Part shown: positions 188 through 42,034 of the stretch, in pieces
How the letters are laid out: each line of letters opens with the position of its first letter
Position numbering within the stretch: position 1 is the first letter of the stretch
Virus record (IMG/VR): IMGVR_UViG_3300049001_000044
Span: 248,001-312,000 of that record
Strand: one strand, 5' to 3'
Length of the DNA stretch: 64,000 bases
Origin: a virus
Program-made: the position numbers and the translations under genes
The notes under the pieces: model-generated
Database searches by the model: none
The model's input: only the letters and a program-made list of their open reading frames with translations
Told to the model about the DNA's origin: nothing

Positions 188-568
188 TTAATGTGATGGA
201 ATGTCCGCGAAAGGAACCATCTTCTTCAACGACTCTCGATCTTCGCTTTCAAGATGTCCACCGCTTTCCTTAAGTCGCTCGATCATCCAAAAAAATCTAA
301 CAACCTGACGGATAGTTTCGGGATCAAACTTGTCCTCAACAGCATGAGCTAGGCTGCCATCATTGAACCATCCCGATTTACCGTCTGGGCCCTTCACATC
401 TTCGTCATCGTCATCTTGATGAACCCACTCAATACCGCCTCTGCGCATTGCGCCTGCTGCGATCAGAGCGGAAACAATATCAGGAATCTGGTCTACACTT
501 TCCGTGACAATGACGGATTCTTGTAGCGGCAGTCCGGCCAGCTTACGAAGCTTGTTGAGATCTTTCAT
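188..568 (-). CDS. Small protein with L-x-E leader, unknown function
   Basis: This 126-aa acidic protein is unrecognised. Its N-terminus (MKDLNKLRKLAG then LPLQE-S and VTE-S) is a short basic amphipathic helix followed by L-x-E/V-x-E, resembling prohead-protease-cleaved leaders of T4 internal proteins. The body has a very acidic stretch (HQDDDDEDV near residue 50) and a helical C-terminal half. The start is preceded by AGGAGAAAAAGA. It is the only leftward gene in the left 25 kb and lies between a terminator and the divergent baseplate promoter region, which suggests an insertion into the late cluster. The leader interpretation is inference. Confidence 0.65.
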   Translation of the reverse strand: MKDLNKLRKLAGLPLQESVIVTESVDQIPDIVSALIAAGAMRRGGIEWVHQDDDDEDVKGPDGKSGWFNDGSLAHAVEDKFDPETIRQVVRFFWMIERLKESGGHLESEDRESLKKMVPFADIPSH

Positions 569-4727: not shown

Positions 4728-4979
4728 ATGAAGATCAAAGAACTGCTAGAGGGTGAGGTTGTTCAGGGCAATTTCCCAAAGCATGGAAAAGTTATTGTCT
4801 CAACTCGTAGAGATGTAGGCGATGAATGGAAGTATTGGACCGGCGTGAATTTCTTCGGTACTAAATCTCGGGCGCTGAAAGTTCCCATGAACAGCGTTGA
4901 TAAGTTGCTTTCTGATTGGGGATTGAAGCTAGATAAACCCACGAGATCAGGTGAAGCAAGAATCGAAAAGGTTCTATAA
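4728..4979 (+). CDS. Small protein with L-x-E leader (83 aa)
   Basis: Unrecognised. It begins MKIKELLE-G, an eight-residue amphipathic leader ending in L-x-E, the same form as the gene at 28098-28412 (MKIRELLE-R) and close to T4 internal-protein leaders (T4 IPIII begins MKTYQEFIAE-A). The remainder is short, basic and likely beta-rich. AAAGGAAACAAAC precedes the ATG, and the gene is 11 nt after gp6, so it is probably made late and in quantity. A role as a packaged internal protein is inference. Confidence 0.7.
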   Translation: MKIKELLEGEVVQGNFPKHGKVIVSTRRDVGDEWKYWTGVNFFGTKSRALKVPMNSVDKLLSDWGLKLDKPTRSGEARIEKVL

Positions 4980-5071: not shown

Positions 5072-5605
5072 ATGTTCACATTCAAAACCTACCTAACTGA
5101 ACTCCTCGATAGGACAGCTTCCCTTCACTACACTTTGGATTGGCCTGAAGAATTGGAGGCTGTTGCCGACATCAATGGCCGTCGTGTCATGTTTCAAGCA
5201 GGTCTAAACAACGCAAAGGATCCTGCACATTCATTTTGGGAAGTATCTTTCAAGGAGCGTGGCAGCTGGGGACACCAACTTAGTGGCAATCGTGGTGAAC
5301 TTGAGGTCTTTGCATCCGCAAAGGCATTCATCCAACACATTGTTGACACAAGAGATTCGCCAACAATCGTGTTTAGGGCAGATAATTTGGCAGGTGAAGA
5401 CTATACTAAGAGAGGCGAGCTGTACCAAAAGATGGCTGTCAAGTTCAAGCCAAAGAACTACACGCTGTTCATCGATAAGACCTTATCAGCCTTCCACTTC
5501 GTATTTAAACCGAAGAAGGAAGGGATAACGGATGTGGAAGTACGTGACGATAGAGAAAGAGAACGGCAGATCCAGCAGTACATGAAGGATCACGGTCTAG
5601 ATTAA
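5072..5605 (+). CDS. Candidate internal protein with L-x-E leader (177 aa)
   Basis: Function is not recognised. It begins MFTFKTYLTE-L, similar in length and spacing to the T4 IPIII leader. The middle contains an aromatic-rich beta region, and residues about 110-160 contain GELYQKMAVKF then a F-H-F-V-F-K-P-K-K-E strand, a pattern I associate loosely with a widespread class of small phage proteins of unknown role. The C-terminus is highly charged and helical. The gene starts nine bases after the pseudoknot-like element, with AGGA as a weak ribosome binding site. Being late and ahead of a strong hairpin, it may be a virion or capsid-interior protein. Confidence 0.6.
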   Translation: MFTFKTYLTELLDRTASLHYTLDWPEELEAVADINGRRVMFQAGLNNAKDPAHSFWEVSFKERGSWGHQLSGNRGELEVFASAKAFIQHIVDTRDSPTIVFRADNLAGEDYTKRGELYQKMAVKFKPKNYTLFIDKTLSAFHFVFKPKKEGITDVEVRDDRERERQIQQYMKDHGLD

Positions 5606-28097: not shown

Positions 28098-28412
28098 TCA
28101 CTGACGATACTTTGAGTTGTCTACATCAGCTTTAGCAAGATGAGACTTCGCAAGATCTTCCTCAGCGCGTTTAGCCATGTTAGCCGCAACGCGAGGGTTC
28201 TTGAATTGGTGCTCTTGGCTGATTCGAATCCAATCAAATTCAGCAGTGTCATGGGCTTGATGAGCGGCTTTGCTGTCCTCATCATCCTTGCCCTTGTACT
28301 TCAACGCCATTTCCTTGTGCCACTTTGCGCGAGCGTAAGCGTCGTCGCGCTGCTTCTTCATTAGGGCTTCGGCCTCGAAGTCGGTTCTTTCCAGTAGTTC
28401 TCTGATCTTCAC
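28098..28412 (-). CDS. Small helical protein with L-x-E leader (104 aa)
   Basis: It begins MKIRELLE-R, near-identical to the leader at 4728. The rest is one long charged helix (KKQRDDAYARAKWHKEMALKYKG, then A-N-M-A-K-R-A-E-E-D-L-A), low in hydrophobic residues. Small, basic-acidic and helical is what packaged internal proteins of T4-type phages look like after leader removal. It overlaps the 28409 gene by ATGA and is followed by a strong terminator. The internal-protein role is inference. Confidence 0.65.
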   Translation of the reverse strand: MKIRELLERTDFEAEALMKKQRDDAYARAKWHKEMALKYKGKDDEDSKAAHQAHDTAEFDWIRISQEHQFKNPRVAANMAKRAEEDLAKSHLAKADVDNSKYRQ

Positions 28413-38693: not shown

Positions 38694-39416
38694 TCATTCA
38701 CCTTCGTAATCGGCGCGGGTACCACTGCGCCAGCTGCTGGTGTCTACGACGAAGTATTTGTCGTCACTTGGGATGTCTTGGCCTTCATCGTCTTCGGATC
38801 CAGTCACGTAGATGAGAACCGAATCTGCATCTGGGCATTTAGCAATTTCGATGCCGTGAACGGTCTGTCCCTCAGCATCGAGGTAGTAGGTAACAGATTC
38901 AAAGCTACCCTGTTCCCAGTCAGAATTTTCAAGCATGTCCTTTTCATCTGGCTGTTCCTTGTAGAATGCATCCAGATGCTGCTGGAGATTTTTGCCCTCG
39001 TAGCTTGCACCAGCCGATTCGTTTAGGCCATCTTCAGTGAGAAGCTTCTCCATTGCGGCCTCGATGTCTTTCGCTTCATCGCCTGTCAGTTCCTTGATGA
39101 GCGTGACTTCTGCCTGGTAAACAGCTTCACCAGCCATGAGGTTGAAGTTGTCCTCATCGTCCTCGTCATGGTCACTCACCAGCTCGAAAGTAGCCCCGCC
39201 AATTGGGCGAAGGAGATGGTTGATTTCCTGCTCGATGTCTTCCCCGTGCTCGGGGAAGTCATAACGAACTCCCCACGTAATTCGATTACCTTCCACGTAA
39301 GGATCAGCCCCTTGAGCACCTCGTACGTCCAGCGTACGCTTGACCGCTTCCAAGATCAGTGCTTTGACGTCAGGCGCACCTTCTTTCAGTGCCATCAGTT
39401 CTTTGATCAGTTGCAT
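38694..39416 (-). CDS. Acidic protein with L-x-E leader (240 aa)
   Basis: It begins MQLIKELMALKE-G, an amphipathic 12-residue leader ending L-x-E, then a second candidate (A-L-I-L-E-A at 20-25). The body is strongly acidic, mixed alpha/beta, with stretches such as DHDEDDEDN (~100) and SEDDEGQD (~210). No enzyme motif is seen. It is one of three consecutive small genes with the same kind of leader (next at 39420 and 40037), separated by 3 and 14 nt. A packaged internal protein is the working idea. Confidence 0.65.
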   Translation of the reverse strand: MQLIKELMALKEGAPDVKALILEAVKRTLDVRGAQGADPYVEGNRITWGVRYDFPEHGEDIEQEINHLLRPIGGATFELVSDHDEDDEDNFNLMAGEAVYQAEVTLIKELTGDEAKDIEAAMEKLLTEDGLNESAGASYEGKNLQQHLDAFYKEQPDEKDMLENSDWEQGSFESVTYYLDAEGQTVHGIEIAKCPDADSVLIYVTGSEDDEGQDIPSDDKYFVVDTSSWRSGTRADYEGE

Positions 39417-39419
39417 TGG

Positions 39420-40022
39420 TTACTCCTCTTCTTCGTTGTGGAATGAATCTTCGGATGGTGGAAAGCTGAGATGCACCGCATAGCCGCCATCCTCCATACC
39501 CTCGTCATCGGGGATGCCGTCCATGAGGGATAATTCCGTGTCACCGTGCATGGCAATCATGTCATTAAACCACGAATGGAAATGTTCCATCTTAGTTTTT
39601 CCTTCTGCCTCGGTGACAGCACGGACCCACAGGTGCGCTTCACGCTCTTCAGGGTCTTCGAAGTCGATAGAGATTACTGCATCACCGGATTCATGCTCAA
39701 CGTACATATCCCCTCCAGGATGAGATTCATTCACTGACTCAGTAGTCATCGCCTCGACTTTCGTCTTGAACTTCTGCAGGCTGGTCGAATACACTGGACG
39801 ATTCTTGTCACCATCCATGTCCTCATCAATATCAGAGAGGAAGTACACCAGGTCATCTTCGATTTTCTGCACGCGGAGAATATCGCCAGCTTGATGGCCT
39901 GCGTTGATACGACCTTGGTCGTACGCGCTCGCAATGAAATTCTTGGTGACTGTATAAAGGCTACCCTCTTTGATACTCGCGCTGGCCTCAGATAGGGCCA
40001 AAAGTTGTTTCAACAGTTCCAT
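39420..40022 (-). CDS. Acidic protein with L-x-E leader (200 aa)
   Basis: It begins MELLKQLLALSE-A, very like its downstream neighbour. Residues ~20-85 are beta-rich (GSLYTVTKNFIAS, DILRVQKIEDDLVYFLSDIDED), perhaps a small SH3-like barrel. The C-terminal half is acidic and ends in EEEE. Another possible site, VNE-S, lies at ~98. The ribosome binding site is AACAGGAGTAAGT. Confidence 0.65.
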   Translation of the reverse strand: MELLKQLLALSEASASIKEGSLYTVTKNFIASAYDQGRINAGHQAGDILRVQKIEDDLVYFLSDIDEDMDGDKNRPVYSTSLQKFKTKVEAMTTESVNESHPGGDMYVEHESGDAVISIDFEDPEEREAHLWVRAVTEAEGKTKMEHFHSWFNDMIAMHGDTELSLMDGIPDDEGMEDGGYAVHLSFPPSEDSFHNEEEE

Positions 40023-40036
40023 ACTTACTCCTGTTT

Positions 40037-40294
40037 TTAGATTGGAATTTGTAGCATCGTACCAACTTTCATCTCTTCAATGCTCAGGATAACGGTTTTC
40101 ATTCTTGTAATCTCATCTCTGTCAGACAATAATTCTTCTGCATGCGATTCAGAATTGGCAATCACTACGTAGAATTCATCATAGCCCTTATGACCAGGAT
40201 TTTTGTTATCTCTACGGAATTTAACGTAGTATGCTTTCGACGTGCCAGCTTTACGACTTGCACTTTCCCTCATAAGTTCTCTCATTAGTTCCAT
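40037..40294 (-). CDS. Small protein with leader ending M-R-E (85 aa)
   Basis: The start at 40294 is chosen because GGAGGAAAT precedes the ATG directly; the in-frame ATG 15 nt upstream would overlap that site. It begins MELMRELMRE-S, again a 10-residue amphipathic leader. The remainder is a compact alpha/beta body (SKAYYVKFRRD, EFYVVIANSESHAEELL, MKTVILSIEEM). It is the first gene of the three-gene leader group. Confidence 0.65.
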   Translation of the reverse strand: MELMRELMRESASRKAGTSKAYYVKFRRDNKNPGHKGYDEFYVVIANSESHAEELLSDRDEITRMKTVILSIEEMKVGTMLQIPI

Positions 40295-40357
40295 ATTTCC
40301 TCCAAACAACCAGTGTTAATTAAATTATACACTGACTTCAGTAGTTTTATACGTGAT

Positions 40358-40540
40358 TTAGCTCGGCATATTAGCTTTAGTCTCTTCTGAATGCTTCTTC
40401 CCCATTCTCGCGAGAGCAATATTTCTCCTGGCTTCCTCACTAATTGGCTTGCGAGGCTTCCTAGGCTTTGCGCTTCTTTCAAAGCTTTGTACGGCGCGAC
40501 TCCATGAATTAACTCCTATAGAGTCGTGCTGTTTTGTACC
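40358..40540 (-). pseudogene. Decayed homing-endonuclease remnant with NUMOD3 motif
   Basis: In frame directly after the TGA of the AAA gene lies an open stretch ending at 40358 whose last 30 residues (KPISEEARRNIALARMG then KKHSEETKANM) are a clear NUMOD3 DNA-binding repeat, found with GIY-YIG and HNH homing endonucleases. No nuclease domain remains. A ribosome binding site and ATG (TAGGAGTTAATTC-ATG at about 40502-40517) lie in another frame, so a frameshift separates start and motif. Confidence 0.6.
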
Positions 40541-42034
40541 TCAGGCGTAAAGCTTCACCAAAGTCTCCCAATTTGCTGCACCAGAAGCCGCCAAGTTCAG
40601 TGCACGTACAAGTGTACGCAGGGAGACTTCTTCCCTACGCTTACCTTCCTTGACCGTCCCCAGAACGTTTTCACGCTGCTTCTTGGTCAGGCTGAGGCCG
40701 TCTTCCAGAGGAATCTTGTGGAGGATCTGTTCCATACGCTCCAGCAGTTCTTCTGGAGTTGGGTTGATCGAGATGACGAAAGCGCGGGTACGCAGCGCTT
40801 TGTCAGGGTCCAGCTTGTTCAGTGACAGGTTTGAAATGAAGATGATTCGGCCTTCGAAGTTGAAGTACTTCGGAATACGGTCGTCATCATCTTCAAGATT
40901 CTCCACGTCTTCAAACTCAGGGTCGATCATATTCGAAGACTTTTTGTTCCAAACCAGCTTACGAATCTTCTTGGTGTCGGTTGCAGCCTTGATCAGGTTA
41001 CGTGCGTCTTGGTCAGCGAGTGCGCCGTCCGAGTCGTCGAACAAGATGATGTCTTTGCGGTGGTGGAAGAGCAGCGAGTAGATACCGATTGCAGAAGCTG
41101 AACCAGTGTTCTTGAAGTAGCCATCACCGTCACGGAGACCTGCTTCATGCAGAGTGTCTTCAACGGTTTGGGTCTTACCAGTACCACCTTTACCTGCAAC
41201 GAACAGTGCGTTGAAGGAGCCCTTGATCAGACCTTGAGTCAGACCTTGCAGGTGTTCTAGGGAGTCAGCGAACGGGATACGGTCAGCAGGATCTTCCAGC
41301 TCTTCTTGCGAAGTTGATTGGTATGTTTCGTTGGTACCGCCAGCCGTAACTAGCAGCTCGCCGTCACCGTGCGCAAGCACTGCTGCAGCCAGTGTGTCTG
41401 TATCAACACCTGGAGCCAGCTGAATACGCTTGCCTTGCTTGACGAGCTGTTCGTCGTAGTCGCCATTTACCAGCACGTCGAAAGCTTCAACAGTGGAGAT
41501 GTGGTACTTGACGATCCAGTCAGTGCGGGTGCAGCTGGTCTTCTTGATACGGATGAGGAAGTCCTTGAGTGCAGATTCGTACGTGTACTCACCACGCTTT
41601 GCCTCAGAAAGGATGGCTTCGCTTTCAGCGACCATTGCTTTTTCTGGCTTGGCGGCGAAGACAGTGAAGGTGCCTTTCTTCGGATTAGCGACGGCGCCGG
41701 CCAGCGCGGGGAGAATCTTGACGAACGAAATGCCGTCAGTCTTCATGGTGTAGGATGGGTCCTTCTTGCCGTCGAATACGTCGATCGACATGATGGAGCT
41801 GGACTTACCAGTTTTTGGTTCCGATTCCCAGTTGAAGCGGATGCACTTGGTGCTGCCGTCAAACACGTAGCGGAGACCCCAACCAGCAGTTTTGCTGTTC
41901 TTGAAGTGTTCGACGCCGGGAACTTTGATGAGTCGTGCACCTACTGCACGCTCCAAGTAGGAGATAACTTTGGTCATCGCGGCATCGACTTTGTGGCTAC
42001 CGATTCGCGCTTCAAATAGGTCTTGTAGTTTCAT
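40541..42034 (-). CDS. AAA-type ATPase with L-x-E-type leader (497 aa)
   Basis: Walker A is G-K-G-G-T-G-K-T (281-288) and Walker B D-I-I-L-F-D-D-S (328-335). A later I-I-F-I-S-N-L segment has the sensor-1 Asn, and RTRAF may supply an Arg finger. The N-terminal ~250 residues are a separate alpha/beta domain. It begins MKLQDLFE-A and has another L-S-E-A at 142-145, both fitting the prohead-protease rule. A late box at 42070 drives it. A motor, remodeller or packaged ATPase is possible; the family is not recognised. Confidence 0.7.
   Translation of the reverse strand: MKLQDLFEARIGSHKVDAAMTKVISYLERAVGARLIKVPGVEHFKNSKTAGWGLRYVFDGSTKCIRFNWESEPKTGKSSSIMSIDVFDGKKDPSYTMKTDGISFVKILPALAGAVANPKKGTFTVFAAKPEKAMVAESEAILSEAKRGEYTYESALKDFLIRIKKTSCTRTDWIVKYHISTVEAFDVLVNGDYDEQLVKQGKRIQLAPGVDTDTLAAAVLAHGDGELLVTAGGTNETYQSTSQEELEDPADRIPFADSLEHLQGLTQGLIKGSFNALFVAGKGGTGKTQTVEDTLHEAGLRDGDGYFKNTGSASAIGIYSLLFHHRKDIILFDDSDGALADQDARNLIKAATDTKKIRKLVWNKKSSNMIDPEFEDVENLEDDDDRIPKYFNFEGRIIFISNLSLNKLDPDKALRTRAFVISINPTPEELLERMEQILHKIPLEDGLSLTKKQRENVLGTVKEGKRREEVSLRTLVRALNLAASGAANWETLVKLYA

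Follow-up and report, generated by a model that had tools for sequence, protein, structure and literature searches.

The stretch analyzed here (the window) comprises 64,000 bases, positions 248001 to 312000 of the 343,229-base IMG/VR virus record IMGVR_UViG_3300049001_000044, which belongs to a T4-related phage. Eight genes in the window encode proteins that begin with a short leader, and these leaders are very probably T4-type capsid-targeting sequences (CTS) cut by a gp21-type protease, expanded in this phage to about 40 to 45 proteins. The whole record was used for the analysis, with ~475 genes called and each scanned for an N-terminal leader. Genes are named by their start coordinates, in window numbering for the eight genes of Table 1 and in numbering of the whole record ("genome") for its other genes. 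Leaders were sorted into class A (MRFKxYLxE type), class B (MKLxxLFE type), class C (NKLRKLAG starts, three genes), and class B2 (the window forms MQLIKELMALKE and MELLKQLLALSE); a slash in a leader sequence marks the predicted cut position, directly after the E (Table 1).

Table 1. Leaders and associated features in the window
Feature	Position	Strand	Gene	Basis
Class C leader MKDLNKLRKLAGLPLQE/S	518..568	-	188-568, 126 aa	Translation, genome scan
Class B leader MKIKELLE/G	4728..4751	+	4728-4979, 83 aa	Translation, genome scan
Class A leader MFTFKTYLTE/L	5072..5101	+	5072-5605, 177 aa	Translation, genome scan
Class B leader MKIRELLE/R	28389..28412	-	28098-28412, 104 aa	GTG start, Shine-Dalgarno GGAG
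Class B2 leader MQLIKELMALKE/G	39381..39416	-	38694-39416, 240 aa	Translation, genome scan
Class B2 leader MELLKQLLALSE/A	39987..40022	-	39420-40022, 200 aa	Translation, genome scan
Leader MELMRELMRE/S	40265..40294	-	40037-40294, 85 aa	Gene call, translation
Class B leader MKLQDLFE/A	42011..42034	-	40541-42034, 497 aa	Position kept, sequence swapped in orthologs
AAA+ ATPase	40541..42034	-	40541-42034	phrog_1250, E = 1e-35; tblastn to NrdC.10 family; Foldseek to AAA+ proteins
Candidate second gp21-type site ILSE144/A, ahead of AAA domain	41600..41611	-	40541-42034	E invariant in seven orthologs as [IVL]xE/[AS]

The first-pass annotation had named an N-terminus at each of the eight genes, and translation recovered all of them. 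The window set includes departures from the usual form: the leader of gene 28098, which we regard as the weakest of the set, is followed by R, that of gene 5072 is followed by L, and that of gene 40037 ends in M-R-E rather than (L/I)-x-E. The class C start of gene 188 recurred in the genome scan at genome 223925, which adjoins gp21, and at genome 231899. Behind the leaders, the AAA protein is the only one of the window set with a predicted function. The body of gene 5072 matched phrog_16075 and phrog_6387 in the PHROGs search, both annotated as function unknown; the IMG/VR scan returned no homologs for gene 5072 or for the body of gene 188. The body of gene 38694 had no matches in Pfam, PHROGs, phages, or IMG/VR, and gene 39420 had no homologs among phages or in IMG/VR. 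At the DNA level, window positions 36.1 to 44.0 kb had no relatives among phages.

Taken alone, an L-x-E near the start was present in 83 of the ~475 genes, against 56 ± 6.5 after shuffling. Since this loose motif gave only a modest excess, we adopted a stricter leader pattern. The full class A plus class B pattern matched 36 of 475 proteins (17 class A and 19 class B), whereas 1000 shuffles gave 0.19 matches on average and never more than 2; in the related phage CBB, the same pattern occurred in 2 of 545 proteins. The eight leaders first noted are a sample of a larger set. As a control for circularity, the hydrophobic core was searched without requiring the E. Even so, the residue at the predicted cut position was E in 17 of the 19 class A cores and in 19 of the 23 class B cores (background, 6%), and two of the exceptions were shifted leaders (31533, MINFKTFLLME/G; 189292, MLIKELLNLRE/A). 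Addition of the window B2 forms, the three class C starts, and a few shifted forms brought the total to about 40 to 45 genes. Class A leaders lie mostly outside the window, at genome 162 to 182 kb, and among the leader genes one adjoins gp21 and two are near gp23. The residue following the E was A, S, or G in 25 of 42 leaders. As expected of CTS, a short N-terminal leader of about 7 to 19 residues is common to otherwise unrelated proteins, and its last residues, where the cut would fall, are (L/I)-x-E with few exceptions such as that at 40037. Not all of the bearers are small proteins as in the earlier description, since they reach 622 aa. A link to late promoters was also considered, and the candidate element TATAAATA was not seen upstream of leader genes in this genome.

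The strongest evidence comes from comparison of the AAA protein with its orthologs. Homologs of this protein were found at 23 IMG/VR loci. The C-terminal half is related to T4 NrdC.10, and the leader-bearing region is an extra segment N-terminal to that half. Assignment to the AAA+ proteins was based on a P-loop, whose sequence in the window protein is GKGGTGKT, and an FDD motif, both kept in seven orthologs, and on Foldseek matches to AAA+ proteins (best E = 2e-4); the best Pfam match, AAA_16 at 0.0048, failed its cut-off. At loci with a readable start, orthologs 39 to 58% identical carried different leaders on the conserved body, namely, MKLQDLFE/A, MKLSQLHE/A, MKSFKSYLAE/G, MKSFKNYLSE, MSTKLSFKGYIAE/A, MEKFSKWLTE/A, MLEFKDYITE/E, and MNIDEMLNE/S, the last of which uses a TTG start. 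Throughout the seven-member alignment, the leader sequence was swapped while its E and the boundary were kept. A second cut, at E144, may separate the N-terminal region from the ATPase. Internal LxE sites were not enriched in leader proteins (1.7 versus 2.0 per 1000 aa), and the conserved E144 is therefore the sole extra site that we propose. In T4-like phages NrdC.10 spans the AAA half only, and the same genome encodes a leaderless NrdC.10-like AAA paralog at genome 11463; therefore, an ordinary phage ATPase seems to have gained the leader-bearing region by fusion. A leaderless Nudix paralog is likewise present, at genome 52903.

The first-pass annotation had suggested looking for a gp21-type protease in the rest of the genome. 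A Peptidase_S77 (E = 1e-24) was found at genome 224.7 to 225.1 kb, 23 kb upstream of the window, and the objection that the phage might lack such an enzyme therefore falls. The protease sits in a gp21-gp22-gp23-like cluster, of which gp22 and gp23 were matched to CBB, and it matches the crystal structure of T4 gp21, 5JBL (E = 1e-13), in an alignment where GELNHP and GVSSRG line up with the T4 protein. We take the His of GELNHP and the Ser of GVSSRG to be the catalytic residues; 5JBL has an A at the aligned His position. The genome thus encodes a gp21-type protease with its motifs kept, as a CTS system would need. The protease itself starts with MKQQLLIE, which is similar to the LIE site described in T4 gp21, and in the major capsid protein (gp23) the predicted cut YLKE39/TAEAG falls within ~2 residues of the start expected from alignment to the mature T4 chain. 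Near gp21 to gp23, the products of genome 214644, 215212, and 223165 have another N-terminus in common, of the type MSHIKSLINNFINGxxDEAxLDxHxHxKG (68% identity over 38 aa in two of them), on bodies that differ; these are possibly gp67/68-like core proteins.

Related phages carry leaders of their own. The tandem array gp53-62 of Atu_ph07 starts with M[RK]WxQL[TN]E. Of the proteins of the CDS 31-76 cluster, which contains gp53-62, 29 were detected in virions by mass spectrometry (PMC6102473), which supports the leader reading at the level of the cluster rather than of each leader protein. Atu_ph07 gp53 (39484-41820) is a 778-aa leader protein with an LYRGM-type motif, and a 778-aa Atu_ph07 match in the structure library is named a zeta toxin domain protein; two effector-like domains may therefore be fused in gp53. 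Related proteins with MKLKxxLxE-type starts were found in LR756508 (484 kb), and a 349-kb record (G003) has both an MITFKQFLSE type and an MKxxELFE type. In LR756502 (642 kb), the AAA homolog starts with MKIKKYQAFYE and has leader-like neighbors. A gene run in LR756502 shows another leader dialect (MSRIRKYKEFITE/S, MKIKKYQAFYE/A, MKHLKRFSELNE/G, and MRIRRFNE/N). The S77 protease was present in seven of nine leader-bearing relatives, and the two misses were partial contigs of 95 to 97 kb.

For CBB, 55 virion proteins detected by mass spectrometry have been tabulated (PMC5259590). An early [LIM]xE/[AS] was found in 5 of these 55 proteins and in 7 of the 490 others (P = 0.004), which we treat as modest support because four related patterns were tried on one data set and the P values are uncorrected. 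Only 1 of 41 leader proteins had a homolog in CBB. A CBB protein absent from the virion list (KU574722, 304960-305559) has a class B leader, MEMKKLME/DISAIMEGQLPDYYYHGSSS, and a YHG motif.

Pfam searches of the leader proteins identified a zeta-toxin-like kinase (162981), an amidoligase (165541), a Nudix protein (56482), and a nucleotidyltransferase (242756); the class B protein 207632 matched ART-PolyVal at 3e-6, just short of the Pfam cut-off. At 163 to 182 kb lies a paralogous array of ~280- to 440-aa proteins; in a set of 16 sequences that covers three phages, R52-G53 and E257 are invariant. An invariant R-G with a distal invariant E is a feature of ADP-ribosyltransferases (ARTs), and going by this motif only, the array proteins are probably ARTs. 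Neither the family nor the fold was recovered for the array in Pfam, PDB sequences, or Foldseek against PDB; hhalign of the array to Alt was not significant (probability, 4%), and Foldseek against BFVD gave mainly members of the array's own family.

By analogy with T4, we infer the following course of packaging and injection. As the prohead assembles, each protein would dock onto the scaffold core through its short N-terminal helix. A cut by the phage gp21-type protease after (L/I/M)-x-E would then release it within the head, and at infection the mature proteins would exit with the DNA. The predicted enzymes suggest that this cargo may serve in host takeover.

Several observations weigh against this reading. 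Some leaders deviate from the T4 rule, with R, L, W, or Q at P1' or M at P3. Several window bodies have no homolog by which conservation of their leaders could be judged. In CBB, the loosest pattern was not significantly enriched in virion proteins (9 of 55 versus 45 of 490; P = 0.08). Finally, two enzymes reported from virions of XacN1, the chitinase ORF272 and the lipase ORF279, have no such leader as annotated, which speaks against a simple rule and indicates that the leader is not used by every virion-packed enzyme.

The poor P1' residues at some sites would also fit leaders that target the prohead but in many cases stay uncleaved, the E being part of a docking helix and not a protease site; in T4 IPIII, a D at position 10 still permits targeting (PMC9026906). 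We consider this unlikely, as the E is kept through swapped leaders while other residues change, the residue after it is mostly A, S, or G, and a gp21 homolog is encoded. Short amphipathic N-terminal helices can in general also act as sorting tags to other destinations, such as a replication compartment, the host membrane, or a chaperone, or the leaders might be a feature of translation initiation. Such roles are still less probable here, given that the leader form matches the CTS in the T4 record, that a gp21-type protease co-occurs in leader-bearing relatives, and that leader genes include one adjoining gp21 and two near gp23. Gene duplication, with the N-terminus retained by a paralogous family, would fit the seven class A paralogs at 163 to 182 kb and further paralog pairs but is scarcely credible for the set, because most of the other leader proteins belong to different families with no detectable similarity past the leader, AAA orthologs switch leader class while the body is kept, and the AAA and Nudix proteins have leaderless paralogs.

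Jumbo-phage genes are mostly without known function, and a leader readable from sequence yields a list of ~40 proteins likely to be packed in the head and to act first on the host. Our opinion is evenly balanced on a wider proposal, in which packaging in jumbo phages of the T4 lineage follows a code that can be read: each phage would have a dialect, probably matched to the scaffold of that phage, on up to ~1/10 of its genes, and this dialect would mark a large set of head-packaged, injected effectors, including probable ART arrays. The packaged proteome could in that case be read from sequence alone. The swapping of leaders on a conserved enzyme is a natural experiment on scaffold-cargo matching, and the leaderless AAA and Nudix paralogs provide natural unpackaged counterparts to the copies predicted to be packaged.

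The likeness to T4 internal-protein leaders proposed in the first-pass annotation was borne out. In the T4 record, ipII and ipIII start with MKTYQEFIAE/A and Alt starts with MELITELFDE. The first ten residues of IPIII suffice for packaging, with residues 4 and 7 involved in targeting and residues 8 and 10 in processing (PMC9026906). The class A register is that of the IPIII CTS shifted one residue earlier (F3, Y6, L7, and E9), and class A thus resembles IPI to IPIII in its short leader, its spacing of aromatic or hydrophobic residues and E, and the protease type encoded in the genome. In contrast to the handful of such proteins in T4, there are ~17 class A and ~20 class B proteins here, the cargo includes large enzymes, and each phage has a leader sequence of its own. 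Class B resembles the starts of the Alt family (MELITELFDE, MTQLNEVFESE, and MEILNEVLDE), Alt being a packaged ADP-ribosyltransferase; the ART-PolyVal match of 207632 and the conserved R-G and distal E of the array extend this likeness, whereas the ART identity of the array is unconfirmed by Pfam, PDB fold, or hhalign to Alt. Homologs of the array proteins occur in the gp53-62 array of Atu_ph07 and in the uncultured phage LR756508 (E = 4e-21 and 2e-15). All of them begin with an LxE-type leader, and an S77 protease is present as well; the dialect is different (M[RK]WxQLTE and MKLKxxLxE forms). In the available parts of two papers on jumbo-phage ARTs, packaging is argued from gene context and fusions, with no use of a leader signal (PMC7824862, PMC9503650). 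The ejection proteins of SPN3US/phiKZ-like phages offer a parallel by published description rather than by sequence: these giant phages, of another group, are reported to package many proteins, some of them cut by a prohead protease (PMC7411985, PMC10052503). The mechanism is therefore of a known kind, the T4 CTS, and what appears to be new is its scale, the coexistence of two leader classes, and private dialects that are exchangeable on a conserved protein.
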